DNA of 64,000 nt from Oscillospiraceae bacterium (GTDB lineage Bacteria; Bacillota; Clostridia; Oscillospirales; Acutalibacteraceae). Below the pieces are notes generated by a model, which worked only from the letters and a program-made list of their open reading frames with translations, ran no database searches and was not told where the DNA came from. Positions 13,582 to 42,126 of this stretch are shown here, in pieces. The stretch spans positions 1 through 64,000 of the forward strand of contig JAFLUM010000009.1 in assembly GCA_022508805.1 (NCBI GenBank), read 5' to 3'. The translations under genes and the position numbers were made by a program. Every line of letters starts with the position of its first letter. The first letter of the stretch is position 1.

Positions 13582-14912
13582 AACTTTTCTACCTCAATAC
13601 AAAGCATATTCGCAAGTGCTTCCAGTTCACTTGAAATATCACCCATTGCCACTGCAAAGTGAGGCTCCCAGCCACCTTTAACGGCATTTTTAACTAAATC
13701 GCCCACATTGTTATTGGTTTTAACAACGACAGATGTTCCGAAAAACTGCTGAGGTTTATCGAGTGCCTCACCGTTTGAAATGAAAAATCTGAATTTTCCG
13801 TCAGGCTTTTTTCCCACTCTGAATACAGTTACCTTTTCCTCTTTTTTGCAGCCGAATTCAAGGGTCGGTCCTATTTTTCTGTTGCAATGTACCCCTGCAC
13901 AGGCACCCGTATCTTCACGGGCAAGTGAACAGGGAGCCATTCCGCAGTGCCAGAAGGTCAGGCTGTTTTCCTTTTCGTCCACCGAAACGGGGTCACCGAA
14001 AAATACGGCTTTTTTCGTCAAATACTGTGCCATATACATTGAAAGAGCACCGTATGTATCGGCCTCACAGGCGGCGGAAATTCCCAAATCGTTCAAAATT
14101 GAAAGCACGGCACAAACAGGCGTACCGAACGCTGTAAAGAAATCGGGCCAACACCTGCTGGATAGGGCACCGATGTTATTATTTTTTACATACTCATCAT
14201 AAGCCTTATAAAGCCTTGCAAAGTCGGAAATGTTGTTTTTATCTATTTTGTCAAGACCGTTTATTCTTCTTTCGGCATCGTTGATATACCGCTCAACATC
14301 CGACTCGCTGTAGCTCTTTGCCGTATCAATAAGCTCTCTTGACTCAACGGAAATCAGATTTGAACCGAATACGGTCATCATTTCGCTGTCAAGTGCCCTG
14401 CCGAAGCCAAAGCCCTGGGGTGTATGACCTATCTGCAAAATGTTTAGCTGTGTCAGTGCTTTTTTCAGCTTTGCCGCTGATATGACCGATGATATTTTCT
14501 GTTTTACGGCAGTCTCGTCAGGAGAGCCGAGCACATATTCAAAATTTCTTCCGAAGGCACTCAGCATATTGCCTGCCGAAAATGCCCCTGTCAGTGAATT
14601 AAGACATAATCTGCCGCCGTTATTTTCGGGTTCACGAAGAGTCCAAAGCAAAACAGGGCAGTCAAACCGCTTTAAGACCTGTGCTATGTATGCTCCGTTT
14701 GCAAAGGTCACGTTCTGAACGATTGCCAAATCGGGATTTTTACCGTTCAAAAAACCGTCTAATTTATTGATATCAAGCAGCATTTCATCAGGCACCGAAG
14801 CATTTGCATCGATCCCCTTTAAAAGCTCTGCCGATTTATCGAATTCCCTTTGTGCGCTTTCCAAATGAAAGGTCGGAACACCGATGGGAATATACAAAAT
14901 TTCAAAATTCAT
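13578..14912 (-). CDS. sftI: L-fucose/arabinose isomerase-fold protein; candidate sulfoquinovose isomerase
   Basis: Fucose isomerase-like architecture (IGHTPQGFGFGRALDSEMMTVFGSNLISVE, TFWHCGMAPCSLA). Functional assignment rests on the operon context. Confidence 0.7.
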   Translation of the reverse strand: MNFEILYIPIGVPTFHLESAQREFDKSAELLKGIDANASVPDEMLLDINKLDGFLNGKNPDLAIVQNVTFANGAYIAQVLKRFDCPVLLWTLREPENNGGRLCLNSLTGAFSAGNMLSAFGRNFEYVLGSPDETAVKQKISSVISAAKLKKALTQLNILQIGHTPQGFGFGRALDSEMMTVFGSNLISVESRELIDTAKSYSESDVERYINDAERRINGLDKIDKNNISDFARLYKAYDEYVKNNNIGALSSRCWPDFFTAFGTPVCAVLSILNDLGISAACEADTYGALSMYMAQYLTKKAVFFGDPVSVDEKENSLTFWHCGMAPCSLAREDTGACAGVHCNRKIGPTLEFGCKKEEKVTVFRVGKKPDGKFRFFISNGEALDKPQQFFGTSVVVKTNNNVGDLVKNAVKGGWEPHFAVAMGDISSELEALANMLCIEVEKF

Positions 14913-24649: not shown

Positions 24650-24754
24650 AAGTCGAGTTTTGACGAGAGTTGAGAAGTAGCAGGTTTATTTTTTTTAACA
24701 TCGAACCGAGCGAGCGCTTGATTTGATAAGCGTTATGTGTTAGGAGTGACAAAG

Positions 24755-25321
24755 ATGGAAACAGACAGAAGAAAAGAAATCGTCAATGCTTGCCTTGACC
24801 TTTTCGTTGAAAAGGGGTTGTATAAAACCTCAACAAGAGATCTAAGCAAGGCCATGAAATTACAAAGCGGGGGTTTGTACTATTATTTTCAAACCAAGGA
24901 CGAGGCAGTGATAGCATGTGTTGAAGCTGCAATTCGAAGACTTGAAGATGTGTTGATTTTGCCTGTTAAGAAAGAAATCATGAACCCGGCTAACATGATG
25001 TCAAGATTACTTTCAAGGGCAAATGAAATGGCTCCAGTTTATCAGTTTGTTGTTTCAGTATGTTCCGATAAGCAGTATAAAGAGTTAACAAAGCCTATTC
25101 TTGATGCATTAGACGAAAGATACATTCAATACTTAGAAACATATGCAAATTTGTTGAATTGCAAAACACAAATATTAGCACCTTTTTTCTATATGTGTAT
25201 TACAGCAATTACAAATTATATGATCTTTCAAAAAGAGTCGTTCGTCTCTCCGCAATTAAAAGCAGTTCAGCTCAAATTAGAACGAATTATAACCGACAAC
25301 CAAGAAACAAGCAATATATAA
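24755..25321 (+). CDS. TetR/AcrR-family transcriptional regulator
   Basis: RRKEIVNACLDLFVEKGLYKTSTRDLSKAMKLQSGGLYYYFQTKDEAV; RBS taggag before ATG 24755. Confidence 0.92.
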   Translation: METDRRKEIVNACLDLFVEKGLYKTSTRDLSKAMKLQSGGLYYYFQTKDEAVIACVEAAIRRLEDVLILPVKKEIMNPANMMSRLLSRANEMAPVYQFVVSVCSDKQYKELTKPILDALDERYIQYLETYANLLNCKTQILAPFFYMCITAITNYMIFQKESFVSPQLKAVQLKLERIITDNQETSNI

Positions 25322-25380
25322 TCAATTGAACAACTAATTACCAAATACTAAACACCAACTCGGTGAAAGGAGATAATAAA

Positions 25381-26628
25381 ATGGCAATTGCAGAAGTAAT
25401 TAAATTCGAAGGCCCCCAGGATGCACTGGTGTGGAAATTTCCTGTAGAAGATTTTAATGCCACATCACAGCTCATTGTTGACGAAACTCATGAGGCCCTT
25501 TTGGTCGTTAACGGAAATGCGGCAGATTTGTTTACTGCAGGAAGAAGAACTCTTTCTGTGCCTAACATTCCCCTTGCAAGAAAGTTAATTGAGATTCCTA
25601 CTGGTGGAAATTCACCCTTTCCTTGTAAAGTTTTCTTTATCAACAAAGTTCATCAAATGGATATGCTGTGGGGAACTCAAGGCCCCATCGCCTTAGAAGA
25701 TCCTTTGTATGATATTTTCATGCACGTTATGGCTAATGGTAGCATGACTATTTCGGTAGAAAACTCTCGCAAGTTTATGCTGAAAGCAGTAGGTTTTCGA
25801 GATAGATTTGATTCAACTGAACTGATTTCCAAATTTAGAGGGATTATCTCTTCACACGTTAAAGATTACATATCCAAAATCATGATTAACGGAAAACTCA
25901 GTTACTTCATGATGAATGCTCATCTTTTCGAATTAAGTGGTGTTATCAAGGAAAAGCTTGATATTATTTTTGAAGAATACGGCATCAAGATTCAATACTT
26001 CAATCTCGAAACAATTGAGGTGCCGGAGGCTGACTATCAGAAAGTAAGCGAAGCTAAAGAGCGCAGAACAAGTCGCATGATCGAAGGCTACACATGGCAA
26101 GAAGAACGTCAAATGATGATCGCCGAAAAGTTTGCTGGGAACGAAGGTACAATGGGCGGTGTAGGCGGTGCAGTTGGCGGCTTTATGATGGGCGGCGCTA
26201 TGGGCGGTTCAATTGTGGAAATAGCAAGAAATGCCCTTGATCCCGAAAACATCCCATCCGCAAAGCCTCCAAAGGATGCTGCTGGAACTGGCTCACATGT
26301 AGGTAATGGCCCCGATAGCATTGATGTTAACAGTTTCTTCAAGCCAAAAGAAGAAGGAACAGAAACAACGGGGGCGACTCCTTCTGGCAAGTGTTTAAAG
26401 TGCGGCGCAGACCTTCCCGAGAACGCAAAATTCTGTTTGAGTTGTGGTGAGAAGGTGCAAGTTGCGGATCAAAACACGGTCGTATGTCCCGGCTGTGGCA
26501 AAACAGTTCAAAAAGGTAAATTCTGTTTAGAGTGTGGATATAAGTTTGCAAGCAACACGTGTCCAAAATGTGGAGCAACTCTCCCCGAAGGCGCAAAATT
26601 CTGCCTTGAGTGTGGCGAAAAAATCTAA
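25381..26628 (+). CDS. SPFH-domain protein with glycine-rich linker and C-terminal zinc ribbons (virion-core-like/YdjI-like)
   Basis: SPFH-like N-terminus (KFPVEDFNATSQLIVDETHEALLVVNG), Gly-rich GGVGGAVGGFMMGGAMGG, then three CxxC pairs (CLKCG/CLSCG, CPGCG/CLECG, CPKCG/CLECG). Confidence 0.88.
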   Translation: MAIAEVIKFEGPQDALVWKFPVEDFNATSQLIVDETHEALLVVNGNAADLFTAGRRTLSVPNIPLARKLIEIPTGGNSPFPCKVFFINKVHQMDMLWGTQGPIALEDPLYDIFMHVMANGSMTISVENSRKFMLKAVGFRDRFDSTELISKFRGIISSHVKDYISKIMINGKLSYFMMNAHLFELSGVIKEKLDIIFEEYGIKIQYFNLETIEVPEADYQKVSEAKERRTSRMIEGYTWQEERQMMIAEKFAGNEGTMGGVGGAVGGFMMGGAMGGSIVEIARNALDPENIPSAKPPKDAAGTGSHVGNGPDSIDVNSFFKPKEEGTETTGATPSGKCLKCGADLPENAKFCLSCGEKVQVADQNTVVCPGCGKTVQKGKFCLECGYKFASNTCPKCGATLPEGAKFCLECGEKI

Positions 26629-26642
26629 GGAGTGTATCGAAG

Positions 26643-27338
26643 ATGAAGAACAATAAGACTAAAAACACAGTAGCCATTGGCTTGATTTATGTAATTCTTT
26701 TAGGGGTTTTTAACCTTCTTGTGTTTACTATTTTTAAGTCCCATAGTAACGTATTTTGGCTCAGTTACGGATTTATGACTCTTGCTTTTGTAGTTCAAAT
26801 TGTAAGCATGTTTCTCTCCTTTAAGACGGCAGATGTAGAAACAGCCTTCTTTGGAATTCCATTGGCCTCATTTTCAGTTTTCTACTTGTGTGCCGAATTG
26901 GTAATTGGCGCACTGTTTATGATTTTCCAAATGGCAAGCATTACTTTGGCTCTTGTCATTCAGGTGCTGGTGCTTGCAGTGTTCTTAATTATTGCGATTA
27001 TTTCATTGCTTGCTCGTGATACCGTGCAACAAATTGGTGACACTGTAAAAGAGCATGTTTCGAATTTGAAATCTGTATTGGTTGATGTAGAGATGATTAT
27101 GGACTCTTGTACAGATCCGGAACTTAAAGCTTCTCTTAGAAAACTATCTGAAACCGTAAAGTATTCAGACCCTATTTCAAATGAGGCGGTGGCAGATGTT
27201 GAGCAACGTATCATGAGAAAGATTTCGGAACTGAGAATCAATATAGATGACAATCAGATCGAGGATGCCAAACAGTCATGTGCCGACCTTGAAAGACTTT
27301 ATGTTGAAAGAAATAAAAAACTCGCCATATCTAAATAA
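26643..27338 (+). CDS. Four-TM membrane protein with C-terminal coiled coil
   Basis: Four hydrophobic N-terminal segments then a charged helical region; RBS taaggag. Confidence 0.75.
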   Translation: MKNNKTKNTVAIGLIYVILLGVFNLLVFTIFKSHSNVFWLSYGFMTLAFVVQIVSMFLSFKTADVETAFFGIPLASFSVFYLCAELVIGALFMIFQMASITLALVIQVLVLAVFLIIAIISLLARDTVQQIGDTVKEHVSNLKSVLVDVEMIMDSCTDPELKASLRKLSETVKYSDPISNEAVADVEQRIMRKISELRINIDDNQIEDAKQSCADLERLYVERNKKLAISK

Positions 27339-27358: not shown

Positions 27359-29353
27359 ATGGCCGTTAGTTTTGTGGCACGAAAATGTACCCAATGTGCC
27401 GGAAAATTAAAATACATAAAAGAAAAGAAGCTTTGGCAATGTCTCTATTGTGGCGCAGAGATCGAGCGAGAAGAAACCTACGATGGACTTTTCACCATTA
27501 AAAATGTGGTTCGTCAATCCTTGTTGGATACTGCCTATCGCAGACTCGATAGTGCGGAAAAGAACATCATTGAATGCGAGAAAATCGATTCGCGCTATAT
27601 TGGCACGTTGATTGCTAAAATTGCTTTTGAAATGATAAGCGTGATCACCCCTGGTGCGTGTGATCCTAATAATACAAAAAACATCTTCTCACAGCTCAAG
27701 AAGAACTACGAACAGTTGAGAGAGGTTAGTACAACAGTTTCAGATGAAGAAGAAGCCCTATATGATTTTTTCGAAGAGTCGGATATTTTTGCTACTCTGC
27801 TCTTGGTGTACGATTCGCTCAATGATGTTGCAAGAAGGGATTTTGTTGCAAATCTAATTGATGCGGAAGATATCTATTCTAAAGCAGCAAACACTAATTT
27901 GCTTACATATTCGATCAAGAACAGCAAATTCGAAATGGCTGACAAAGTGTTAAATAACACGAATAATTTGGATAACCTTTCCGCATTAGTTGAAGTTCTA
28001 AACAAGTATCCCGATAATGATAATAAAGCAAACAATATTGATAAATTGCTTGGTACGGGAGAGATAAAAGGCGAAAATAAAACTATTATTGAAAACTATC
28101 TTTCCTCTTCGGATGATTCTGTAAAAACAAAATCTTGTGTGTTGGTGTCGGCGCTTACATCAGGAATGAAATTAGGCACAGAATTGATTATTCATACAAT
28201 CCTATCCAAAGCGGACGCAGAGCAAGTACAGGCCGTTCTGCCTTGTATGTGTAAATCGCGCCTAAACGATGAAGACACTTTACGCATATTATCTTTTGCT
28301 TATGAATGTGGCAACTATAATATAGCTACTATAGTGCTTAATTGTCTTAAAGAGAGCGAACAATATGTTTTGTTGCCAGCCAAGTATATTATTTCTATGC
28401 TGTCACAGACTACTTATTCCGCTGAAGAAAAAGTTGCCCTTTTAAAACTTTCTTTTGAGTTTAAGATTGAGAATAAGTCTTTTGAGTCTATCGTGTCAAA
28501 TTACTTGTGTTTTAATTCTGACGATATACAAACACGAAAAGCAATACTTGATTGTTTGTTTGACAGAGCGACAACTTTCCCGACATCGTTAGTTGAGACC
28601 TATGTCTTAAAATGCTCATCAGACGGAGAAAGAAAACCGGATATTATCAAGCAAATGTTTGATAAAGGCTTAAACACAACATTCTTCAACGATTTGCTAT
28701 CAAGATATATGAGCGCAACTACTGACTCACAAGAAGTTAAGATTGCGGTAATTGACACTTTAACAATGATTGGTCTTAAAATAGATCCGTCTGCATTTGC
28801 AGATTATATTTGTGAATCAAATGATGAGGTTCAAAATAAGATTAACTTCATTGGTAAAATGATTAGAAATGGCGCTCAAATTAGAAGTGATACAGCAAAT
28901 CTCTATTTGGAAAAAACCAAGCCCGAAGATTTTAGTTCTGAACTTTTTGCCACCATTTTCACCCCAGTTAGTTCTTTCAGCGCAAAAGCAATAGAGAATT
29001 ATATTTTGCGTTTCAGAGAACGTGAAGCAGTTAAGGCTCAGAATGCCAAAACTATATTAGATTTATCACCAAATGTAGTCACAAATATCACTTGCCAAAT
29101 TTCGCACTTGAATAACAGTATATCTTGTAACTTGCTTCAAGCATATTTGTTACAAACGGAAGATAGTCAGACGGTTGCTTTTGACATTGTAAACAATCTC
29201 ATCAACGGACAAAGAATCAAGATCAACGAAGAAATGAGAGTGTCAGGCACTCCAATGAAACTAAAAAAATATGTCGTTGCTAACAAGAGTAATTTGAGTG
29301 AAGCAACAAATGCGATTTGCGAGAAATACAAAGTATATTCAATGATTTTCTAA
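27359..29353 (+). CDS. N-terminal zinc-ribbon protein with long alpha-helical (HEAT/ARM-like) repeat region
   Basis: CTQCAGKLKYIKEKKLWQCLYCGAEIE zinc ribbon; rest is regular helical repeats. Confidence 0.72.
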   Translation: MAVSFVARKCTQCAGKLKYIKEKKLWQCLYCGAEIEREETYDGLFTIKNVVRQSLLDTAYRRLDSAEKNIIECEKIDSRYIGTLIAKIAFEMISVITPGACDPNNTKNIFSQLKKNYEQLREVSTTVSDEEEALYDFFEESDIFATLLLVYDSLNDVARRDFVANLIDAEDIYSKAANTNLLTYSIKNSKFEMADKVLNNTNNLDNLSALVEVLNKYPDNDNKANNIDKLLGTGEIKGENKTIIENYLSSSDDSVKTKSCVLVSALTSGMKLGTELIIHTILSKADAEQVQAVLPCMCKSRLNDEDTLRILSFAYECGNYNIATIVLNCLKESEQYVLLPAKYIISMLSQTTYSAEEKVALLKLSFEFKIENKSFESIVSNYLCFNSDDIQTRKAILDCLFDRATTFPTSLVETYVLKCSSDGERKPDIIKQMFDKGLNTTFFNDLLSRYMSATTDSQEVKIAVIDTLTMIGLKIDPSAFADYICESNDEVQNKINFIGKMIRNGAQIRSDTANLYLEKTKPEDFSSELFATIFTPVSSFSAKAIENYILRFREREAVKAQNAKTILDLSPNVVTNITCQISHLNNSISCNLLQAYLLQTEDSQTVAFDIVNNLINGQRIKINEEMRVSGTPMKLKKYVVANKSNLSEATNAICEKYKVYSMIF

Positions 29354-29377: not shown

Positions 29378-32086
29378 ATGATAAAAACATTGGCATTGGC
29401 TAATGGTAATTATGTAAGTATGGCCATCGCTGAAGTTATCTCCGTTCCTTATTTTGAGTTATATGCAAAAGACTTAGATCGAGCAAATTACATGAATCAA
29501 GTTTTATTTACACAGTTAATTCAGTCTTTGCATAGAAAAACTGAGGGTGGAAATACTGCTTTCGAATTTTTGTTTCAAAGTGTGGCAGTAGATAACCAAA
29601 CATACAAAGCACAGGTTAAGATGTATGTCCTCATAAGAAGAATTGGTGACGCCAAAGATGACAACGAAAAGAAAGTGTCAGATTTAATAAACAGCATAAA
29701 AAACGATATGGAGGATAAGAACTTCACAGTATCTATTTTTGCTGATGATATAGCTTACAATGACTTTGAAGAATCATTATCAAAATGCGACTATTCAAGG
29801 AAGTTGTCTGTATCAAAAAATGAAAAAGCTATGGCAAACGCTTTGTCTGCCAACGGTCTGACATATTACAATGAGGTTATTGAGCCTTCGGAAAATATTA
29901 ATCCATCCACATTGATCAATGCACTTTCTCAATATCCCGACAGCGTTGTTTCATTGCAAATCCTTCCAACAAAATACACTTTGAATGAATTGCAGTTAGT
30001 AGAGCAAATACACAATTTTTATGAGCATTATGTAAGCGAGATAAGATTCCGTCAAGGCATCCATGTAGATGTTAACACTCAAATGGTGGCTGATGCTTAT
30101 AATTATTATTCTCAGTCTTCCAACGAACAATTATTTCTTTACAGTTTTGTTGTATATTCCGGATATAGCAGTGCAATCGATCTATCAAATAAGCTGATGG
30201 ACTCTCTTGAAGCAGAGGGAAAAGCAACCGGTAGTTCATTATGCGTTGTTGATTTTTCTGATTTTAATGTTGTTCCTTATCAAAATCTATTTGCGAATCC
30301 TTGGTTATTAAGTGATGTTTTAATTTATAAAGCAAGAGAGAAGAACTTTTGGCAAAGCAAAAATGCACCAACGGTTTTGCAACGCTTCAAGCATTTGATG
30401 ACAACGAGAGAGATTCGCGGACTATTTAAGTTTCCAATTGATGATAAACGTGTTATTGGATTAGAAAGCAATAAAATTCTTTCTAACAGAGAAAAACTAC
30501 ACAAAAGCATTATCTCTGATGGAAACTTCAAAGTGGGTATCATCCAAAATGCCAGCAAGAATTCAAGAGATGCAGATGCACATGCCGGTATACCGCTTAA
30601 TGATTTTACGAAACACGGTCTTATTGTTGGTATGCCCGGTTCAGGTAAAACGAATTTTTCATTAGGGCTACTTTTGCAATTCTGGAACGAATTCAATATA
30701 CCTTTTCTTGCAATTGAGCCTACTAAAAGCGAGTATCGTTCATTGATAGACGGTATTCCCGATTTACAAGTATTTACTCCAGGAAAAAACACAGTATCTC
30801 CTTACATAATAAATCCATTCCTCCCCCCCACCGGAGTTACTGTTGAAAGTTATGTGCCAAGTTTGATGTCGGCATTTCGGGCAGCCTTCTCTATGCCGGA
30901 TCCGTTGCCGGATATCTTTTTGGCTGCAATTAATGATTGTTATAACGAATATGGTTGGAAAAACGATAGTACTTCTGACGATCCTGCAGTACAGCGTTTC
31001 GGCCTGTATGAGTTTATTAAGGTTTTCAAAAAGAAAATTCAGCACATGGATTATAAAGGCGATGTAAAATCCAATATGGAAAGCGCCGGTGTTGTCCGCT
31101 TAGTTAGTCTTATTGAGCAGAACAGCAACATATACGATACGATTAACACGATTCCACTTGAAGATTTACTGAAAAAGCCAACTGTTATTGAGCTGAATGC
31201 GATCAACAACAAAGAGCAAAAATCTCTGATAATGGCACTGTTGTTGATTATGATTTGTGTTTATACAAAGAACAATGTTTCAGGGGATGGACAATTAAAG
31301 AATGTCCTGCTCATAGACGAAGCACATGTTCTTCTTGCCGGTGGCGGTGCCAAGGCGGATGGTAGTGCGGATTCTCAAGGTTCAACCGTAGAAGCCCTTG
31401 AAGATATGATCGCAGAAATTCGTTCATATGGTACAAGTATAATTATCGCTGATCAGTCCCCCACTAAAGTTGGTAGGAGCATTGTTGCAAATACCAATGT
31501 TAAAGTGATTTTCAAGCTGGTCGAAAAAGAAAACAAGGATGCAATCAGTACAGCAACAAATATGAATGAGGCTGATTATGAACTTCTTGGCCGCTTAGGC
31601 GTTGGAGAAGCTTTGCTCCATTACGGCAGAGTTTATACGCCCCTACATATAAAAACTTATAATGTCCAAGAAAAAGCAACACTTAGACCAGTAATTGAGG
31701 ATCGTGAAATAGCCTCATTAACAAAGTATTGGGACACTCATCAATCGTTGCTTGTTCCACACATCGAATGTGAGAGCTGTTTTTACTGTCACAATGATTG
31801 CGATTTTAAAATTCGTGCAAATGCTGACTTTATTGCAACCAGGTTGATCAATGAATATTTGTATGAATTGCAAGACAAATCTGCCTTTGTGAAATTTCTT
31901 GTGCGGATTGATAAACCAATCAATGATATATTGGCAGAGAATAATTCAATTACTTTTAGTAAAAGACTTGCTAATTGCATCAAGATTAAGTTTTTACGCA
32001 AGGCAATGCTTGTAAAGAATTATGGGATAACGAAAAATGAGTACAAAACCATTCTTAAACACCCAAATTTCTTGAAGCGCGACTGA
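29378..32086 (+). CDS. HerA/FtsK-superfamily (DUF87-like) ATPase with C-terminal Cys cluster
   Basis: Walker A HGLIVGMPGSGKTNFSLGLLLQF, FLAIEPTKSEYRSL, Walker B NVLLIDEAHVLL, IIIADQSPTKVGRSIVANTNVKVIFKL; CESCFYCHNDC at C-terminus. Confidence 0.9.
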   Translation: MIKTLALANGNYVSMAIAEVISVPYFELYAKDLDRANYMNQVLFTQLIQSLHRKTEGGNTAFEFLFQSVAVDNQTYKAQVKMYVLIRRIGDAKDDNEKKVSDLINSIKNDMEDKNFTVSIFADDIAYNDFEESLSKCDYSRKLSVSKNEKAMANALSANGLTYYNEVIEPSENINPSTLINALSQYPDSVVSLQILPTKYTLNELQLVEQIHNFYEHYVSEIRFRQGIHVDVNTQMVADAYNYYSQSSNEQLFLYSFVVYSGYSSAIDLSNKLMDSLEAEGKATGSSLCVVDFSDFNVVPYQNLFANPWLLSDVLIYKAREKNFWQSKNAPTVLQRFKHLMTTREIRGLFKFPIDDKRVIGLESNKILSNREKLHKSIISDGNFKVGIIQNASKNSRDADAHAGIPLNDFTKHGLIVGMPGSGKTNFSLGLLLQFWNEFNIPFLAIEPTKSEYRSLIDGIPDLQVFTPGKNTVSPYIINPFLPPTGVTVESYVPSLMSAFRAAFSMPDPLPDIFLAAINDCYNEYGWKNDSTSDDPAVQRFGLYEFIKVFKKKIQHMDYKGDVKSNMESAGVVRLVSLIEQNSNIYDTINTIPLEDLLKKPTVIELNAINNKEQKSLIMALLLIMICVYTKNNVSGDGQLKNVLLIDEAHVLLAGGGAKADGSADSQGSTVEALEDMIAEIRSYGTSIIIADQSPTKVGRSIVANTNVKVIFKLVEKENKDAISTATNMNEADYELLGRLGVGEALLHYGRVYTPLHIKTYNVQEKATLRPVIEDREIASLTKYWDTHQSLLVPHIECESCFYCHNDCDFKIRANADFIATRLINEYLYELQDKSAFVKFLVRIDKPINDILAENNSITFSKRLANCIKIKFLRKAMLVKNYGITKNEYKTILKHPNFLKRD

Positions 32087-32119: not shown

Positions 32120-34315
32120 ATGGCCGATGAATTTGATACTTCTGTAGACACTTCATCATTTGATGATACAGGTTCAGATGTCTCTGACACAAGTAGCTTT
32201 GATACATCAACTGATGTTGGCGAGATAATGAGTGACAACTCATTTGACGTTGCAGACACATTTGCTGAATCTGAATTATCAGATATGGAAACGATTGAAA
32301 CCACATCTGATATTGGGGACTTAATGGCAGATACAGACGCCGAATATACCGAGTCTCTTGACACAACTGAAATTGAAACAGATATAATTGAAGATGGATC
32401 AGACAATATTGAAAATCTTATGGACGATGCACCCAACGATGGATTTTCCGAAGTAAGTGATATTCCAAGTGATATTACATCAGAAACTGAGTTTGCGGCC
32501 GAATCAGATATTGTCGACCTTATGGATGAGGCGGCACTTGAAACTGCTGAAGAATCATTAGATATCACAGACGGCGAACCATCTGAATCATTAGATATAT
32601 CGGAACTAATGGACGAAACTGTTAATGATTCTCCCGATGAAACAATTGAAAATTTAGAAGCTGTTGATACTACAGAAAATATTGCCGATGAAACCATGGA
32701 TGACATCGAGAGTTTGATGGACAATAACAATTCGGAAGTTTCTGATACACCGGAAGAAACTGAAGAAATTGCGGCAGAAGTAGTTGAGAGTGGAACTGAT
32801 TTGTCTGATTTGATGAATGAAACAGATGAGCCATCCGAAATGCCCTCCGACATTTCAGTTGAAACTACAGAAGAAGTTTCTGATGCACTTGAAGGAAACG
32901 AAGAAATTACGACTGAAGTAACTGAAGATGGAACTGATTTATCTGCTCCAATGAATGAAACAGTTGGGCAACCGGAGCTATCTTCCGACATCCCTGCTGA
33001 GCCGTTAGAACAAGTTTCCGAAACAGCGGATATGTCTGAAGGCAACTTTGACGAAACAGTTGAAGATACAACAGATGGAACTATAATTGATGCATCCAAT
33101 AGTGAAACTGATGTCTCTGCTTATGATAACCTTATGGCTTATATGAATTCACATAACTATGGGCAACAAGACGTTGGCGAATATTCACAGGATCCCGAGT
33201 GGCAAGAACTTAACAACGCTTACCGAATTGAACAAGGAATGGAGCCTATAGATTATGGTGGAAATGACTGGACTGACACCCATGTTGAAGATTTCAAAGA
33301 CGAATTAGTCGCATTGGGTATTCCGGAAGAAAGCGCTGAGCTTGAAGCAATAATCGAAAACGAGCAGCAAGGTATTGATGACATAAAAAAGCCCACGCCA
33401 GTAGACGAACCGAACAATGAAGATTTATTGGATGGTGCAGAGGAAATCATTGATGCAGATTCCGCTGATATATCTAATGAAATTGAAGCAATAGCAGAAG
33501 CCGAAACTATAGAACCAGTCGAAGATTTGACAGAAACACCGAGAGTCTTCGACGATTTCGAAAACAGCGTGCTTGAAGGCAAACCGGACTTTTATGAAAC
33601 GGGCTCATTCTATGAGCAAGGAATCAATGAGTATGGTTATCAAGGAACCTGTGGCCCCACGTCGCAAGCTAATGCGCTCAACAAATTATTTGACACCAAT
33701 GAATTCACGGAAAACAAAGTTCTTAATGTTGCCGTAGATAATAATCTATGTAGCATGGACACATCTCCCGAAAACTGTGGCGGCACAACAACAGAACAGT
33801 TCATGGAACTGTACGATAAAATGAACGAGCAACTGGACGGAAAAATCGACACACAACTGTTTGAGTACGATAATGCATTAGATGTTAACGATGTGGCTGA
33901 TAAACTTGATGAAGGTTGTGTTTTGAATGTTGCTGTAGATGCCAATGCTTTATGGGATCAACCACGTGAATATGTTAACTCTATGGGCATACCGTGTGAT
34001 GATTTCTATTCAGATCACTGGATTACAGTTACTGGAGTTCAGCGGGATGAACTTGGCAATGTCCAAGGGTTTGACATTATCGATTCCGGAGGTGGAGTTG
34101 ATTATGTTAGTGCAGACAAATATCACGAAATGTGTTTTGGCACTGATGAACATCGAGTTATAGATCCAACCGCAATTGTGGTATCTAAAAAGGATGTTTC
34201 ACCGGTTGGAGAAATCCCTACTGCTGAAGGCACAAGTTCTGATATAAACGATTCCACTTCAAACAATAGTGAAAGTGGTTGGTTTCAAAGAATCTTTGGA
34301 AGGAGGAACAATTAG
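32120..34315 (+). CDS. Acidic Asp/Glu/Ser/Thr-rich protein with repeated short motif and C-terminal C39-like papain-fold protease domain
   Basis: N-terminal array of about 8 (D/N)(I/V/L)xx(L/I)M-type motifs; C-terminal GTCGPTSQANAL (Cys), SDHWITVTGV (His), GFDIIDSGG (Asp). Confidence 0.82.
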   Translation: MADEFDTSVDTSSFDDTGSDVSDTSSFDTSTDVGEIMSDNSFDVADTFAESELSDMETIETTSDIGDLMADTDAEYTESLDTTEIETDIIEDGSDNIENLMDDAPNDGFSEVSDIPSDITSETEFAAESDIVDLMDEAALETAEESLDITDGEPSESLDISELMDETVNDSPDETIENLEAVDTTENIADETMDDIESLMDNNNSEVSDTPEETEEIAAEVVESGTDLSDLMNETDEPSEMPSDISVETTEEVSDALEGNEEITTEVTEDGTDLSAPMNETVGQPELSSDIPAEPLEQVSETADMSEGNFDETVEDTTDGTIIDASNSETDVSAYDNLMAYMNSHNYGQQDVGEYSQDPEWQELNNAYRIEQGMEPIDYGGNDWTDTHVEDFKDELVALGIPEESAELEAIIENEQQGIDDIKKPTPVDEPNNEDLLDGAEEIIDADSADISNEIEAIAEAETIEPVEDLTETPRVFDDFENSVLEGKPDFYETGSFYEQGINEYGYQGTCGPTSQANALNKLFDTNEFTENKVLNVAVDNNLCSMDTSPENCGGTTTEQFMELYDKMNEQLDGKIDTQLFEYDNALDVNDVADKLDEGCVLNVAVDANALWDQPREYVNSMGIPCDDFYSDHWITVTGVQRDELGNVQGFDIIDSGGGVDYVSADKYHEMCFGTDEHRVIDPTAIVVSKKDVSPVGEIPTAEGTSSDINDSTSNNSESGWFQRIFGRRNN

Positions 34316-34317
34316 CG

Positions 34318-34791
34318 ATGTTAGACATTAAGAGTGTTGTTTCCAATTTAAACAGGAATGCACTTGGTGGTACAAAAATTCCACACGCTGTGTCAAATTC
34401 TGTATTAAGACAGGAAAACGAAAAAATCTATATTGCTGCTTTTGTTTACACCTATAATCGTGAAAATTTGCAGAGCAATAAGATGCCTCGTCCCACTCAA
34501 TGGTTATTGGCAGATATTGAATCCGGAGAAATTATTAAAGAATACGATTGCAGAAGCAAAGATTTTTCAGATGCCGAATTTGATACCCTATATGATTTAA
34601 ACGATCCTAATGTTAAGCGCCCTTCAAGGGAAGACTTCGTTGAAATCTATACGCTTTTCGATGATATTAGGAATGAAATCACAAAAAATGATTTACAAAT
34701 GGTCGATAAGTACCACGACTACTTGAATAGGATCCTTGAAATTACACCGAGCAATTATCAAAGATTCTACAAAGATCTCAGTAATCTATAA
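34318..34791 (+). CDS. Hypothetical cytosolic protein
   Basis: 157-aa ORF in the operon, start tentative at ATG 34318 after aaggaggaac RBS. Confidence 0.75.
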   Translation: MLDIKSVVSNLNRNALGGTKIPHAVSNSVLRQENEKIYIAAFVYTYNRENLQSNKMPRPTQWLLADIESGEIIKEYDCRSKDFSDAEFDTLYDLNDPNVKRPSREDFVEIYTLFDDIRNEITKNDLQMVDKYHDYLNRILEITPSNYQRFYKDLSNL

Positions 34792-34808: not shown

Positions 34809-36557
34809 GTGACTGAAGAAGAATATCGTGCGGAACAAGCTGAAGCAGAACGATTAAGAAGACAGATTAATGATGTAATTAATCGAATCAACTACACGAA
34901 TCAGGAAAACGCAGAACTTGAAGCAGAATTAGAAGTTGCCATTGAAAATGTAGGTATTTTAATTGGTAACTGCGGTCAATTGGATAACGAAGTCTTTGAG
35001 GAAATGGGGTGGCTCTCCGGCGTTGTTGGGGAAGCCGATATAAGCACAAAAGAAGTATTTCAGGCACTAAACGAGCTTACTGTGCAATATTTCTCATTCA
35101 AAAGTATTTCTACTGCATCCAAAAATGTAACCCAGTACAATGATGAGTATTACACAAAATATTCCTATTACAATGAATTACGGCGAATTTCGTTAGGTTA
35201 TGTTATTGGTCTTGATTCAAACATTATCAATAACGAAACCATGCGGAAAAAGGTAGAAAAAGCTTATTTGCAGAACACAGAGTATTGGCTTGCATATTGT
35301 ATTGCCGCTGTAATGTTGTGGGCGAATAAAGAGAAAGAGGCCGCACAACGAGCAATGAGCAAAAGCCTTTCTATTAACTATTTTAATTCTTGTTTATTCT
35401 ATCTGCTGATCAATTTGAGATTCAATCGAATAGACGCTGCAAAGAAATGGTATGTTAATTACCTTGATAGAGCTGACATGAATAACTTGGGCGAAGAATG
35501 GCAGTATCTCCTGCAAGCCTACTTGTTTGGTGCATTTGGTGCGGATGAGGAATTCCAAGAAATTATCGCTAAATGTTTCCAAAGCATGCTTGCACAGGTA
35601 GAAGTTACAACTGTTGATTTTGCTAAGAAATTCACGCAAAAGGCTCTTGAATTTGCTGAACTCTATGTTCATAAAACGAATTATGAGTTTACTATTTTGG
35701 GACGCACTTGTGATGAATATCCGCAGATGAAAGATTTGTTATCCACTGCGGAGAAGAACATTGAAATTGCAAAGTATTATGATGGGTTGGCCGAAGCCGA
35801 AATCACAGAAACTATTGATTTGCCCCAAAGAATCGAAAATGTTCTTTATTCGTTGGTTAATGATTATGATGAAGAAGAACTAAAAGTGGTTCAGAAAATC
35901 AAATACAACGAGGCAATTATTAGCGCAAAAGGCGACGTTGCTACTGCCCAAGCAAATTACAATGCAATTTTTGAAGATCGCAATAAAAAGAAAAACCTCG
36001 GCGATTTGCTTTTATCATGGGCATTTGCAGATGACACGGCTCAAACAGATGTTTCAGTTAAGAGATTCTCTATTTCCTTTATGAAAGAAGCAATTGCAAA
36101 AGGCTTTGAGCAATTCGTTGAAAAATACCGTGCCAGAGAAAAAGAGAAGTATTCTTTCAATATTGATGAATGCATCTTGGAATGCAACGAGAATGATTAT
36201 TCTGAAGCAGAGAAAACTCTTGATAAGTATTATGATAAAAACAAGCTTAAAGATACTATCAAGGACAAGCAGGTGTTGATTTATTCAGGTTTATGTGGAC
36301 TTTCGCTACTTCTGCTGTTAATTCTGTTTGCGTACTTCTCACCGGTTATCCTTACCTTTGGAATACTTATAGGTCTTGCTGGCAGTTTTCTTCTTTGGCG
36401 CCGAATTGTTGATATGGGTAAAATACTCAAAGAAAAGAAACGCAAAGGCAAGTTGCTTTTGAAACAAGCTCTCGACGAATTGAAACAATGGAGAGTAGCT
36501 TACAAAGAAGCAGACGAAAAGCACACTGATATGCTAAAAGCAATTGATAGATTTTAA
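34809..36557 (+). CDS. Cluster paralog 1: coiled coil - helical YWL/AAKKW domain - TM hairpin - coiled coil
   Basis: GTG start after agaaggagg RBS; YWLAYCIAAVMLWANKEKEAAQRAM...NLRFNRIDAAKKWYVNYL; C-terminal hydrophobic hairpin. Confidence 0.82.
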   Translation: MTEEEYRAEQAEAERLRRQINDVINRINYTNQENAELEAELEVAIENVGILIGNCGQLDNEVFEEMGWLSGVVGEADISTKEVFQALNELTVQYFSFKSISTASKNVTQYNDEYYTKYSYYNELRRISLGYVIGLDSNIINNETMRKKVEKAYLQNTEYWLAYCIAAVMLWANKEKEAAQRAMSKSLSINYFNSCLFYLLINLRFNRIDAAKKWYVNYLDRADMNNLGEEWQYLLQAYLFGAFGADEEFQEIIAKCFQSMLAQVEVTTVDFAKKFTQKALEFAELYVHKTNYEFTILGRTCDEYPQMKDLLSTAEKNIEIAKYYDGLAEAEITETIDLPQRIENVLYSLVNDYDEEELKVVQKIKYNEAIISAKGDVATAQANYNAIFEDRNKKKNLGDLLLSWAFADDTAQTDVSVKRFSISFMKEAIAKGFEQFVEKYRAREKEKYSFNIDECILECNENDYSEAEKTLDKYYDKNKLKDTIKDKQVLIYSGLCGLSLLLLLILFAYFSPVILTFGILIGLAGSFLLWRRIVDMGKILKEKKRKGKLLLKQALDELKQWRVAYKEADEKHTDMLKAIDRF

Positions 36558-36575: not shown

Positions 36576-38177
36576 ATGTCTAATGCTTCACAAGCAATTA
36601 ATACTCTTGACCAAACTATTAACTCCTTTAAGTCAAGAGTTGATGTAAAGGTCAATGATGTTAACGCATCGACCGCAAGCATTCAAGCAACCACAAATAA
36701 GATTTACGAAAACATTGAAAGATTCAAAACCGATATGCTTCATGGCGAAGAAAAGCAAATCGCTCATGAGAATATTCTGAGAATCGATCAGATCATCAAA
36801 GAACAGTTCAGTAATCACATTGCTATCCGGCGTACAGTAATGGGAGTTGTTCGTGATTTTGACATCAATCTTGTTCGCAACAGCACTATTCAAGAATTGT
36901 CCGAAGAACTGTGGATTACAAGTTCTCGCTATTGGCTTTCCTACGCATTGATTGCAATTACCGCTTGGGTTAACAACTATCCCGATGTGGCGAAGAATGC
37001 GTTGGCCGAAAGCGGAAGAAAAGATGCGATTAAAACAACCCTCTTCTTCTGTTTGATGAACTTAAGATTCGGACGCATGGACGCGGCAAAAAAATGGTTC
37101 TACGAGTATTTTAAGACATTAGATCCGACCATGCTCCAACAGGAAACGGCCATTCTGTTACAATCCTTCTTGAATGGAGTTTTTGGAAAAGACAAAGAGT
37201 TAGAGCATGAAGTTATCGAGCTTATTGATGAATGGATCACCATCATCAATGACAACGAGGAAATCTCTAACGAATTACTTAACGGTTATGAAACTTACAT
37301 ATCCAATTTAAATGCACCTGTTCAGTTCAGTTATGAATCCATCCTAAAGTATTGCACAAACTCCGGACAATTGGAGAAGACTTACAAGGATGTATCCAAA
37401 TTCGAAATGCTTTTAGAGTTCGTTAAATCCCTTGATGTAGAAGCAGAACCTCAAGATGATGAGAATTATAAGAGTAGAATAGATGCTATCTTGATCAACC
37501 TTATTTCTAATTATGACGCCGAAGAACTTGAACTGAAGAAGCAACAAGAGTATTATCGCTGTATCGTGGAAAACAATGGCGTTGTTGAGCAAGCTGAGGC
37601 TCAGTATCAAGCTATGGAAGAATTGCAGAACACCTCTTTTAACATCGGTAAGCAAATGATTAAGTGGGCTATTTATGACGATAGCGATCAGACCGATGTG
37701 CAAGTAAGAAAGTTTGGCTTCCAAAACACAAAGTCTTGGTTTAAGAGTGCAGTTAATAATTTTGATGGAAAAGTTCAAGAGGCCTATCCCAATGAATACA
37801 ACCTGCATATTGATACCTGGGACGGAGTAAGTAACGGAAACGATCAAGCCGAGCAAATCCAAAGTCTAAAGAATCATTTTGACAACAACAAATTTCAGAA
37901 TATGTTTGTTAACACCCCCAATATTCTTGCAGCAATTCTATTTGTAGTTTCTGCCGGACTTGCTTTTGCAACGTTGTATTCACTAATTGTAACAGCACTG
38001 TCTGCTGGTTTCTTAGTATTCAGAGTTTTGCAAGCAATTAAAAAGTATCCTCTCCGCATCAAAGCCGCAACTGATAATTTGAATGCTGTTATGGGTGAAA
38101 TTGCTGAGTTCAAGCGCTATTACGATGAAAAACGTGCAAAGAAAGATGAACTTCTTAGCACTGTAGAGTTTCTTTAA
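36576..38177 (+). CDS. Cluster paralog 2: same architecture
   Basis: YWLSYALIAITAWVNNYPDVAKNAL...NLRFGRMDAAKKWFYEYF; two TM segments near C-terminus. Confidence 0.82.
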   Translation: MSNASQAINTLDQTINSFKSRVDVKVNDVNASTASIQATTNKIYENIERFKTDMLHGEEKQIAHENILRIDQIIKEQFSNHIAIRRTVMGVVRDFDINLVRNSTIQELSEELWITSSRYWLSYALIAITAWVNNYPDVAKNALAESGRKDAIKTTLFFCLMNLRFGRMDAAKKWFYEYFKTLDPTMLQQETAILLQSFLNGVFGKDKELEHEVIELIDEWITIINDNEEISNELLNGYETYISNLNAPVQFSYESILKYCTNSGQLEKTYKDVSKFEMLLEFVKSLDVEAEPQDDENYKSRIDAILINLISNYDAEELELKKQQEYYRCIVENNGVVEQAEAQYQAMEELQNTSFNIGKQMIKWAIYDDSDQTDVQVRKFGFQNTKSWFKSAVNNFDGKVQEAYPNEYNLHIDTWDGVSNGNDQAEQIQSLKNHFDNNKFQNMFVNTPNILAAILFVVSAGLAFATLYSLIVTALSAGFLVFRVLQAIKKYPLRIKAATDNLNAVMGEIAEFKRYYDEKRAKKDELLSTVEFL

Positions 38178-38208: not shown

Positions 38209-38394
38209 ATGAGTAACGAAATCAAAAACCAAAATCAAGATGTCGAATTTGAGCAGATGATGGAACAGCGCATCCGTGAAAACTTTGCAGCTCCTAACAA
38301 TGGCAGTGTAGAGATTTCCGATGAACGCTTGAAAGAAATGAGCAAAAAACTTCCCGAATGGAGTCTTGAACCTCCATATAGTTTCTTGAAATGA
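38209..38394 (+). CDS. Small hypothetical protein (61 aa)
   Basis: aaaggag RBS; ATGA-type overlap with next gene. Confidence 0.65.
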   Translation: MSNEIKNQNQDVEFEQMMEQRIRENFAAPNNGSVEISDERLKEMSKKLPEWSLEPPYSFLK

Positions 38395-38894
38395 GTATAG
38401 TAACAGAACGAACAGAAACAAAAGCTCCAACTACATATCAAGAATGGCTCGACTGTTTCGAAACGATGAAACATAACCCTGTTAGCGGTAATGGAGTCTT
38501 TGATGCTGTTGCGTCAGGCTCCTTTACCGGAACAGAGATTACAATTGGTGCGATGCAAAATCAAGTGGTAGAAACGGTTAACGCAATTCTGGACAAGAGT
38601 GTAAAGCGGTTTATCAAAGAGCTGAATGAAAGTATCTCTTTTAATGATTTGTCGCAGATTGATGTTTTGTTTCGTCATCTAAAACGAGATATAGAAAAGT
38701 CATTGTTTTTTGAAAATCTGTTCTTTCTTCCAAAGACATTCCGAACGGAATTGTCGCAATCAGTTAAAACACAAATGCAAAAGTTTTGGAATGATACTGT
38801 GAAGTTTTTATACGAGCAGTCTTTGGAATTTTCCAACTCCGAACTTGAAGATGTGTTGTTTTTGATCAACCGCATTCATCTTTTCAAATCGTAG
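38391..38894 (+). CDS. Hypothetical helical protein (167 aa)
   Basis: Overlaps the preceding stop codon (atga); helical composition. Confidence 0.72.
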   Translation: MSIVTERTETKAPTTYQEWLDCFETMKHNPVSGNGVFDAVASGSFTGTEITIGAMQNQVVETVNAILDKSVKRFIKELNESISFNDLSQIDVLFRHLKRDIEKSLFFENLFFLPKTFRTELSQSVKTQMQKFWNDTVKFLYEQSLEFSNSELEDVLFLINRIHLFKS

Positions 38895-38902
38895 GTGATA
38901 CA

Positions 38903-40414
38903 ATGGGCAATTACGTTTCAACAAAAGCTGAAATTAAAAATTACATATGCGCAAGAACACCACTGATTGTGGTTGATTCTTCAGAGCGTGAACGAGTCGA
39001 AAGAATGCTGAAGGAAATCTCTAAAGAATTGGATGTCAGCATTAACTATTATACTGATGAAAAGCAGGTATGTTCTTTTAATGGCAACGCAAGACAAGAT
39101 GTGGACGGCGATCCGTTGCATTATATTGCTACTGCCTTCAAGAAGCACCGCAACTCGACTTTCGCCATAGGAGATATTAAGCGTATAGGTGAGGATAACG
39201 TTTTCAGCCGAGAAGTTCTCAATCTTTTGTATTTGGCGAAAGAAACAAATTGCACATTGATACTTATTACCGCAGATAGCATTTGGTCTCGTTTGTCCCA
39301 GTTTGGAATGCTGACTACGTTAGAGTATCCCGATATGGATGAACGAATTAGTCAAGTAGAGACCTTCATAGGACAGTTTAACGGAAGATATCCAATCGAG
39401 TGGGATCCCCAAGACATACGAATGGCAGCAACACTTTTGAGAGGTTTCTCGGAGATCCAGATCGATAACATCTTGTCCACAACATTGGTAAGCAAACAAA
39501 AACTGAGCAAAGAGCATTTATTCGAATTAACCGAACAAAAAAGCAAACTATATTCTGCAGTTCCAAGCATACAAGCTGTTAATGTTAACAGAAACCTGGA
39601 AGTATCAGGACTTGATAATTTAAAAGCTTGGCTGAATGAGAAAAAATCTATTTTCTTTGCTTCCGATGATGCGTTGAAAGACCGTGATCTTACAACTCCT
39701 AAAGGCATTTTACTTGCCGGCGTTCCAGGTTGTGGTAAATCTTTATCTGCCAAGATGGTAGCAAAAGAATGGGAATTGCCACTATTTAGGTTTGATCTTG
39801 GAACCATTTATGACAAGTGGGTCGGCGAGAGTGAAAAGAAGATGAAGGAAGCACTACAGTTTATTGATAATGTTTCTCCATGTGTCGTTTGGGTTGATGA
39901 GATTGAAAAAGCGTTATCGGTTTCTGACACAGGTAATGATACAGGAAAACGTGTTCTTGGTCAGTTTTTATTTTGGCTTCAAGAATCTAAGAGTCGTGTG
40001 TTCTTAGTGGCTACAGCAAACGACATTTCCTTACTGCCCTATGAGTTGTTTAGAAAAGGAAGGTTCTCAGAAATATTTTTTATTGATTTGCCTAATGCTG
40101 CAGAACGCAAAGCAATAATAGAACAGTATTCAAGAAAGGCTCTGCACATTAAGTTTGATGAATCCGAAACATCAGAACTTGTGCAAGCTTCAAAAGGATT
40201 CTCGTATTCTGATATCGAGTATGTTATTAAGGATACCGCACAATTGGCATTATTAAACGGACAAACCATAATTAGCAAAGATTTGCTTTTGGAAAAGTTC
40301 AAGGAGATCATTCCAATTTCGCAAACTAATCCCGATAAAGTAAAACAAATCAGAAAATGGGGATCTGAAAGAGCTGTAGCAGCATCAAGTAAATCAGGAG
40401 GTATCGAAGAATGA
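38903..40414 (+). CDS. AAA+ ATPase, Ycf46-like
   Basis: N-terminal IKNYICARTPLIVVDSSERERVERML; Walker A GILLAGVPGCGKSLSAKMVA; DKWVGESEKKMKEAL; Walker B CVVWVDEIEKAL; FRKGRFSEIFFIDLP. Confidence 0.92.
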   Translation: MGNYVSTKAEIKNYICARTPLIVVDSSERERVERMLKEISKELDVSINYYTDEKQVCSFNGNARQDVDGDPLHYIATAFKKHRNSTFAIGDIKRIGEDNVFSREVLNLLYLAKETNCTLILITADSIWSRLSQFGMLTTLEYPDMDERISQVETFIGQFNGRYPIEWDPQDIRMAATLLRGFSEIQIDNILSTTLVSKQKLSKEHLFELTEQKSKLYSAVPSIQAVNVNRNLEVSGLDNLKAWLNEKKSIFFASDDALKDRDLTTPKGILLAGVPGCGKSLSAKMVAKEWELPLFRFDLGTIYDKWVGESEKKMKEALQFIDNVSPCVVWVDEIEKALSVSDTGNDTGKRVLGQFLFWLQESKSRVFLVATANDISLLPYELFRKGRFSEIFFIDLPNAAERKAIIEQYSRKALHIKFDESETSELVQASKGFSYSDIEYVIKDTAQLALLNGQTIISKDLLLEKFKEIIPISQTNPDKVKQIRKWGSERAVAASSKSGGIEE

Positions 40415-42126
40415 GTAATTACGCATTACAGAGCCAACTTAACCAGCTTGAAGCAGAGTTAAGAAGGGCTCAAGAAATAAATCGTCAACTACGCGGTGAA
40501 TTGACCACTGTTGCAAACGGCGTGAGTCGTGCTCACAAAGATCTTGAAGATTATAATAGTACAATTCGGAATACGTTGGACAATTGCAACGGTGCGATGC
40601 ATTCATCCCATCAGCGCGTAATTGATGCAATAGAATTGCAAGGCGATATCGAGCGTTTGTATGTCAAATTTAAAAACGTCGAACTTGCTAACAAAAAGAT
40701 TAGATCTTGCAACAATAAAAAATACTATGATTTTGCTAACTATCGTACAGTGAGAAAAATCGTTCAAGGTATTATGGATAATCTCGACGTACAGATGGTT
40801 AGTGATCAAACCATTACAAAATCAGTCGAAGTTCAGCATTTACAAACGCCGGATTATTGGCTGACTTGTGTGCTTATTAGTGTAATGGCATGGAGAAATA
40901 ATGATAAAGAACTTGCCGATCGCGCGATGGCACGCGCTATCAAGCTCGACAAGAAAAATAGTGCTATTTTTTATATGCTCTTCAATTTAAGAATGGGTAG
41001 AGATGGCGCAGCATTAAAATGGTTCTACACATACCAAGAGTGTGAGCTAAAAGGTAGCGATCAACGGACATTCTTGATGTTGTTCTCGCTTGTTAGCAAA
41101 ACATTGGCAGATAATGTTGACGAGAACACTAAGAATGAGATTTTTGCTTTTATCAAAAAAGTAATTGATATGAATATGGCCGCCTCCGGTTATAGTGAGG
41201 AAGACATCGTTGCTCAGATAAGAGCATATTTCAATAGAATGCAACCTTCGGATCAGCTCCAGTATTCGATGTTGCGAAAGTATTGTTCCGAATTTGACCA
41301 ACTGACCTCTTTAATGATGCAGGCCAAGAACAATATCAACATACTTGAGTTTATTCTAAAAACGGCTAATGTACCTGCAGAGGAAAAGAACTCCTTCCTC
41401 AAAAATTACATTGACGAACTGATTGCCACACCGAACCAAGTCGAAAAAGATGTATATGACGAAATCGCATATAACGAGTTAGTTATTAAACTTGAAGGTG
41501 AAGTTGAAACCGCAAAAGAACAGTTTGAGACTGCCCAAGCTAAAAAAGCGAATGATCTGAATCTTATTGCAGAGATGATAGATTGGATTTATGAACGAGA
41601 TGCCCAAGATGTTAACGGTCAGATCAGACTCAGTATGTTTACTCTTACGAAACTGCTCCAGGAAAAAGCCGTAACAGAACATGTAGAGAATTACAGAGCA
41701 AGAAGAAAGGCCAATTATCCGATCACAATTGGCGAGTATGGTACAACGGCAAACTTTAAGCGCGAAGATGAGGAATACAAGAAAATCACCGATTACTTTA
41801 CTGAAAAGAAGAATGTAGCCGTTGCAGCAATCAAAGATTGGCCTGCCTTTATCGGATTTGGTATTGGTGCCGCCGCACTTGTTGGTTGTTTCTTCGCTGG
41901 ATTCTGGTTATTGGTTTTAACGCTGGGTGGAGTAGGTTATGGCCTTTTCACCTTGCTATCCAACAAAGGTCAGAGAAAGCAACTCGAACAAAAGTGTGCA
42001 GAAAGCATTAAATCCACAAGTGATATAATGCAAAAAATGTTTGTTGAATTCAAGCAATATCAGAAAGAATTGGATGAGTATGATTCTTATTATGAAAGAA
42101 TCTGTGATGAATTAAGTAAAATTTAA
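40411..42126 (+). CDS. Cluster paralog 3: same architecture as paralogs 1 and 2
   Basis: Translationally coupled (atga) to AAA gene; YWLTCVLISVMAWRNNDKELADRAM...NLRMGRDGAALKWFYTY; TM hairpin AFIGFGIGAAALVGCFFAGFWLLVLTLGGVGYGLF. Confidence 0.82.
   Translation: MSNYALQSQLNQLEAELRRAQEINRQLRGELTTVANGVSRAHKDLEDYNSTIRNTLDNCNGAMHSSHQRVIDAIELQGDIERLYVKFKNVELANKKIRSCNNKKYYDFANYRTVRKIVQGIMDNLDVQMVSDQTITKSVEVQHLQTPDYWLTCVLISVMAWRNNDKELADRAMARAIKLDKKNSAIFYMLFNLRMGRDGAALKWFYTYQECELKGSDQRTFLMLFSLVSKTLADNVDENTKNEIFAFIKKVIDMNMAASGYSEEDIVAQIRAYFNRMQPSDQLQYSMLRKYCSEFDQLTSLMMQAKNNINILEFILKTANVPAEEKNSFLKNYIDELIATPNQVEKDVYDEIAYNELVIKLEGEVETAKEQFETAQAKKANDLNLIAEMIDWIYERDAQDVNGQIRLSMFTLTKLLQEKAVTEHVENYRARRKANYPITIGEYGTTANFKREDEEYKKITDYFTEKKNVAVAAIKDWPAFIGFGIGAAALVGCFFAGFWLLVLTLGGVGYGLFTLLSNKGQRKQLEQKCAESIKSTSDIMQKMFVEFKQYQKELDEYDSYYERICDELSKI

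Follow-up and report, generated by a model that had tools for sequence, protein, structure and literature searches.

The 731-residue protein encoded at positions 32120-34315 (plus strand) of a 64,000-nucleotide stretch of an Oscillospiraceae bacterium genome (contig JAFLUM010000009.1, assembly GCA_022508805.1; hereafter, at its full length, the window) is a modular effector in which an acidic N-terminal region carrying eight short motifs precedes a C-terminal enzyme domain that is exchanged for other enzymes in related operons. The motif is conserved within the clade of the adjoining HerA-family ATPase, and the gene directly downstream changes with the type of C-terminal domain. We consider it probable that the effector is the exchangeable toxin of a polymorphic-toxin-like system, with the motif array docking it to a co-encoded SPFH/HerA/AAA+/TPR machinery and the next gene restraining the enzyme.

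Domain structure and motif array of the effector

The effector gene is divided as follows:

32120..34315, plus strand: modular toxin-like effector, 731 residues, comprising an acidic motif region, an HNYG helical module, a linker and a papain/C39-like domain (open reading frame with AAAAAGGAGG upstream; homologs)
32213..32962, plus strand: eight D[IVL]xx[L/I/P]M[D/N/S/A][D/E/N] motifs in a predicted disordered, polyanionic region (motif positions, shuffles, AlphaFold2, composition)
33113..33250, plus strand: HNYG module, YxxxHNYGxxDxxEYSxDPEWQxLN (profile and homologs; AlphaFold2)
33620..34195, plus strand: papain/C39-like catalytic domain with putative triad C511, H633 and D655 (sub-threshold Pfam match, Foldseek, residue positions)

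A first-pass annotation of the window had pointed to eight short hydrophobic-methionine motifs, and all eight are present in frame, matching [DN][ILV]xx[ILP]M[SADN][DEN] within residues 32-280 of this ATG-initiated reading frame. They begin at residues 32, 64, 96, 130, 159, 195, 227 and 273 (window positions 32213, 32309, 32405, 32507, 32594, 32702, 32798 and 32936). Composition shuffles of residues 1-332 give 0.010 matches, compared with the eight observed (p <= 0.0002), for an expression that was fitted to the window's own motifs, making the homologs the fairer test. Each of the other open reading frames examined in the window contains at most one loose match, and when a stricter version of the motif is sought at DNA level across the genome, the effector gene holds three of the four matches. 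The spacing, initially described as irregular, proves to be nearly regular, with successive steps of 32, 32, 34, 29, 36, 32 and 46 residues, six of the seven lying within 29-36. The long final step is explained by a recent 138-nucleotide (46-residue) tandem duplication, 72% identical, that contains motifs 7 and 8. The remaining copies diverge at the codon level, implying that the motif is maintained as protein sequence.

The description of this region as acidic and disordered also stands. Residues 1-335 include 55 aspartates and 57 glutamates (112 acidic residues) and no lysine, arginine or histidine. Disorder is supported by the AlphaFold2 model, in which the predicted local distance difference test score is ∼30-45 across residues 1-330 and short helices are placed on or beside several of the motifs.

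Could the tail act chiefly through its charge, by nucleic-acid mimicry, by threading into the HerA ring or by keeping the toxin soluble or inactive, with the hydrophobic motifs incidental? The extreme composition fits such a role, and relatives of HerA translocate DNA. Acidity is, moreover, conserved more widely than the LM-type motif, extending to a Priestia plasmid locus with a HerA only 31% identical. The excess of motifs over the shuffles is not accounted for by charge, however, nor is the recurrence of the motif in homologs whose tails align poorly, and we regard a mainly electrostatic role as unlikely.

Beyond the tail, ordered helices are predicted for residues 334-417, at the HNYG module, and a second folded part for residues ∼510-692. 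A 48-position profile of the module matches proteins in 5 of 398 genomes of the family, every one an effector of this kind. It is missing from the effectors of L009, G750 and G132, and thus appears to be common in these proteins but not obligatory. The C-terminal domain is by prediction a papain-fold cysteine peptidase, since the best Foldseek match of its model is staphopain (1cv8, E 2.5e-5, probability 1.00) and the Cys-His-Asp positions are kept, C511, H633 and D655 being common to the four C39-type proteins, of which the window's is one.

Exchange of the C-terminal enzyme and its partner

Ten orthologous operons retain the SPFH, HerA, AAA+ and TPR-membrane genes but differ in the effector C-terminus. 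Identity between the window and L009, L010 and L012 is 80-86% for the SPFH protein, 80-88% for a 533-residue TPR-like protein and 76-78% for HerA; for the effector, alignment is limited to the N-terminal half, or there is none. An acidic-tailed effector stands beside HerA in every operon in which this place can be read, the tail in G707 being less acidic than the others. As in polymorphic toxins, a constant N-terminal region is followed by exchangeable ends, of which related operons display four types: C39-like (window, L016), C39 with a RelA/SpoT-like domain (L013, L015; structural match to SaSAS, 8vx3, E 1e-7), zincin with an HELWH motif (L010, G750, G132) and Tox-PL (L009, L012, G707). The last is a recognised toxin family, PF15644, matched above its curated cut-off; the C39-like assignment in the window combines a sub-threshold Pfam match with a fold match.

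A gene specific to the toxin type lies directly downstream in all nine readable loci, which span two other operon architectures as well. A 157-residue family accompanies the C39 ends of the window and L016 and recurs, fused, in the partner proteins of L013 and L015; the L013 copy is preceded by an HD_4 domain, paralleling the RelA/SpoT domain added to the toxin. The corresponding partner in L015 (15520-16560) resembles the HD-fused protein of L013, with a degraded HD region. Zincin ends are paired with a 97-98-residue family (3/3, in three different operon types) and Tox-PL ends with a 75-residue family (2/2). Random assignment would produce a perfect match with a probability of 4!3!2!/9!, or ∼0.0008, for nine loci that are not fully independent. 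As partner and toxin type go together in every readable locus, the exchangeable end and matched partner appear to form a polymorphic toxin-immunity pattern, and we infer that the partner genes encode immunity proteins.

The same exchange bears on a second explanation, in which the effector serves the SPFH/HerA complex as a scaffold, structural or signalling, and carries at its C-terminus a regulatory peptidase and not a toxin. A multivalent motif tail encoded in an operon of membrane-associated ATPases would suit a scaffold, and toxicity of the effector is a prediction from sequence. A scaffold would not be expected, however, to swap its C-terminus among unrelated enzyme folds, a curated toxin family (PF15644) among them, together with a matched partner, and this explanation is accordingly improbable.

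Lineage of the motif

Does the motif belong with the toxin or with the machinery? The HerA tree groups the window with L009-L012 in a single clade (100/99), within which three toxin types occur. With the motif expression loosened at one position, LM-type motifs are enriched in six of the effectors, numbering 8 in the window, 5 in L010, 3 in L009, 5 in L011, 2 in L013 and 2 in L015, the last two being the carriers outside this clade; L012 has six LL/IL forms. These classes were broadened after inspection of the homologs, for example to admit tryptophan in L011 (DVTDWMDE), and the unloosened expression gives 4 in L010, 2 in L009, 1 each in L011, L013 and L015 and 0 in L012. LM motifs are absent from L014, L016, L017 and the other operon types; by eye, L014, L016 and L017 carry DISGLD-like or other repeats. 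L016 shares 59% identity with the window in the C39 domain, yet its effector has no strict motif. The motif thus follows the lineage of the machinery and not the toxin domain. Of the homolog conservation proposed in the first-pass annotation as a check, the motif type is borne out in the sister clade; the positions and spacing are not conserved.

Because the motif tracks the machine lineage and is lacking beside the L016 C39 domain, it is better read as a docking element than as a cleavage site. That the effector's own cysteine peptidase recognises or cleaves the motifs, as had also been suggested, is very unlikely and was rejected: array and peptidase share one polypeptide, and papain-like domains free the toxin by self-cleavage in some polymorphic toxins, according to a 2012 census (PMC3482391), but the presence of the motifs does not match toxin type, since they occur with a zincin (L010) and Tox-PL (L009) and not in L016, and the C39 domain is the sole catalytic domain of the window effector, leaving little to release. 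The earlier proposal of a multivalent docking scaffold survives in its first half: docking is the best available reading, and the protein itself resembles cargo, a modular toxin, more than a scaffold.

Operon and neighbouring genes

The effector gene lies within a co-directional operon, preceded by a TetR gene, in the order SPFH, membrane protein, 664-residue protein, HerA, effector, 157-residue gene, two TPR-like membrane proteins, 167-residue protein, AAA+ and a further TPR-like membrane protein:

24737..25321, plus strand: TetR-type regulator, upstream, present also at L009 and L010 (domain scan, locus comparison)
25363..26628, plus strand: SPFH (Band_7_1) protein with C-terminal double zinc ribbons (Pfam E 3e-34)
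26637..27338, plus strand: 233-residue membrane protein, conserved in the operon (open reading frame, locus comparison)
27359..29353, plus strand: 664-residue helical-repeat-like protein with N-terminal zinc-ribbon-like cysteines and no match in the Pfam scan (locus comparison)
29378..32086, plus strand: HerA/FtsK-family ATPase, 902 residues, immediately 5' of the effector (Pfam DUF87 and HerA_C; PADLOC mad8/HerA)
34318..34791, plus strand: putative cognate immunity protein, 157 residues, accompanying every readable C39-type toxin
34809..36557, plus strand: 582-residue TPR-like protein with a C-terminal hydrophobic segment (open reading frame, locus comparison)
36576..38177, plus strand: 533-residue relative of this kind, among the best conserved genes, 80-88% identical in the sister clade (locus comparison)
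38391..38894, plus strand: 167-residue conserved operon protein (locus comparison)
38903..40414, plus strand: AAA+ ATPase, nearest models IetA/CDC48-type (PADLOC, domain scans)
40411..42126, plus strand: 571-residue TPR-like membrane protein (open reading frame, locus comparison)

The 157-residue gene begins 2 nucleotides past the effector stop codon, and its GGAGG ribosome-binding site lies within the end of the effector gene. Its product gives a confident structure model, for which Foldseek found no match in the PDB.

An unusual fusion is encoded 3 kb downstream of the operon (45463-47628), where a large serine recombinase with Resolvase, Recombinase and zinc ribbon domains has a C-terminus matching SpoVT_C (E 1e-37); it could point to a mobile island or to insertion into spoVT. 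A tyrosine integrase-like gene (L007:1413-2528, the same as L010:4120-5235) directly 5' of the TetR gene of an orthologous operon suggests that the operon travels on integrative elements.

Distribution of related operons

Searching genome contigs with a HerA alignment yielded the ten operons, in Oscillospiraceae/Ruminococcus-type metagenome-assembled genomes. Few homologs were recovered, from draft assemblies, and loci L011, L014, L017 and L018 are interrupted by contig ends. At family level HerA turned up in 8 of the 398 genomes searched, with more distantly related operon types occurring in G750, G132, G286 and G707. The system is patchy, and rare, since a class-wide search of 388 genomes recovered the window's own copy alone. 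Plasmid tblastn with the C39 domain, HNYG module and partner gene gave no matches, and a search of viral contigs with the HerA alignment gave none. Phage records contained two distant HerA matches and nothing else, and scans against PHROGs found no match for the core machinery proteins scanned, with weak matches elsewhere.

Several of these loci differ from the window in gene content. In G750, of the same genus, a related HerA operon (L027, minus strand, 12969-14747) encodes a TIR-domain/TPR protein and leucine-rich repeat proteins of the BspA type where the window has its accessory genes. The Ruminococcus operons encode a second acidic protein 5' of SPFH (L014:1-567, L016:2-442, L017:3-422), with a basic C-terminus and repeats such as DISFDNFAELMNEIDDEP, its 5' end running off the contig. 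On a Priestia megaterium plasmid (NZ_CP064271.1; L019:14560-21033) a distant HerA, 31% identical, is followed by a 1135-residue protein with many acidic repeats (SEKLDDLEQKETDQLTDTDTELQDDL), which suggests that the pairing of HerA with acidic repeats predates this operon.

Proposed mechanism

Under the docking reading, the constant half of the effector would consist of a disordered acidic tail with repeated amphipathic D-[I/V/L]-x-x-[L/I/W]-[M/L]-[D/N]-[D/E] motifs, followed by the helical HNYG module. The variable end would be an enzyme, in the window a papain/C39-like cysteine peptidase, held in check by the product of the gene that follows. The array of motifs would provide a multivalent handle for the membrane-associated SPFH/HerA/AAA+/TPR machinery, retaining the toxin there until deployment, which may be export to other cells or release within the cell. 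Export is favoured by the polymorphic ends, the cognate partners and the FtsK/HerA-superfamily motor. Intracellular action is favoured by the missing secretion signal and WXG100 protein and by the defence-system models that are nearest to HerA and AAA+. Modular structure, motif conservation within the machine clade, domain exchange and partner linkage are observed; toxicity of the enzyme, protection by the partner, binding by the motifs, a receptor for them and the mode of deployment are proposals.

Several points weigh against this reading. Toxin and partner are both readable at nine loci, from metagenome-assembled and other genomes. The Ruminococcus operons and the other operon types have no strict motif, which would require a receptor either to accept different motifs or to change along with them. 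The window's C-terminal domain matches Pfam C39_2 with E 0.008, below the cut-off. For the toxin, neither a secretion signal nor a known secretion apparatus was found, and domain scans of the effector N-termini matched no trafficking domain from established secretion routes. Acidic tails of low complexity can serve other purposes, among them solubility, protection from aggregation and threading driven by charge, and the reading as a whole draws on sequences and structure models.

A more far-reaching proposal would make the SPFH/HerA/AAA+/TPR-membrane operon a machine, not described before, by which Gram-positive gut bacteria deliver toxins; it would recognise its exchangeable toxins by the repeated D-I/V-x-x-L-M-D-E motifs of a polyanionic tail that the HerA motor engages. 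This we put forward as a speculation, somewhat doubtful at present. If the docking reading is correct, a HerA/SPFH-centred class would be added to the polymorphic toxin systems, with toxin recruitment through a linear-motif array and not a folded trafficking domain. It would further allow a conserved membrane-ATPase operon of gut Clostridia, so far without annotation, to be approached through its function, and would yield three or more candidate immunity families (157, 98 and 75 residues) that likewise lack annotation.

Comparison with known systems

How does this arrangement relate to known systems? It resembles type VII (ESX) secretion with its LXG/WXG toxins in its Gram-positive setting and in the presence of an FtsK/HerA-superfamily motor near polymorphic toxins. 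In contrast, the window ATPase is an N-terminally extended HerA and not a multi-domain YueA/EssC protein; no WXG100 protein was found in this genome, and the domain scan found no WXG/LXG domain in the effector. Type VII secretion was rejected as the exporter on the lack of WXG100.

The HerA and AAA+ proteins match PADLOC models as distant relatives of the HerA anti-phage systems (Sir2-HerA, HerA-DUF4297, MADS mad8) and of IetAS. No Sir2, DUF4297 nuclease or NurA partner was found among the operon proteins scanned. The AAA+ protein does match IetA models; domain scans of the operon found no IetS-like subtilase.

In FaRel toxSAS modules a small alarmone hydrolase is the antitoxin (PMC11782079), and the RelA/SpoT-like toxin end of L013, with an HD_4 domain in the next gene, is similar. 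Here, unlike toxSAS, the RelA/SpoT end is one of several exchangeable ends of a large motif-tailed effector.

A close likeness is to the polymorphic toxin systems. In its available part, the 2012 census (PMC3482391) includes Tox-PL1 and C39-like among its toxin domains and lists no HerA/SPFH route except the FtsK/HerA motor of type VII secretion. Full-text searches of a literature collection with few subscription papers or preprints found no account of SPFH/HerA with polymorphic toxins; an earlier one may exist. A constant N-terminus, exchangeable C-terminal toxin domains and an adjoining immunity-like gene are shared with the systems of the census. The effector differs in having no visible signal peptide, WXG/LXG, PAAR, RHS or other listed trafficking domain, and in being linked instead to an SPFH/HerA/AAA+/TPR-membrane operon and bearing a motif-array tail.
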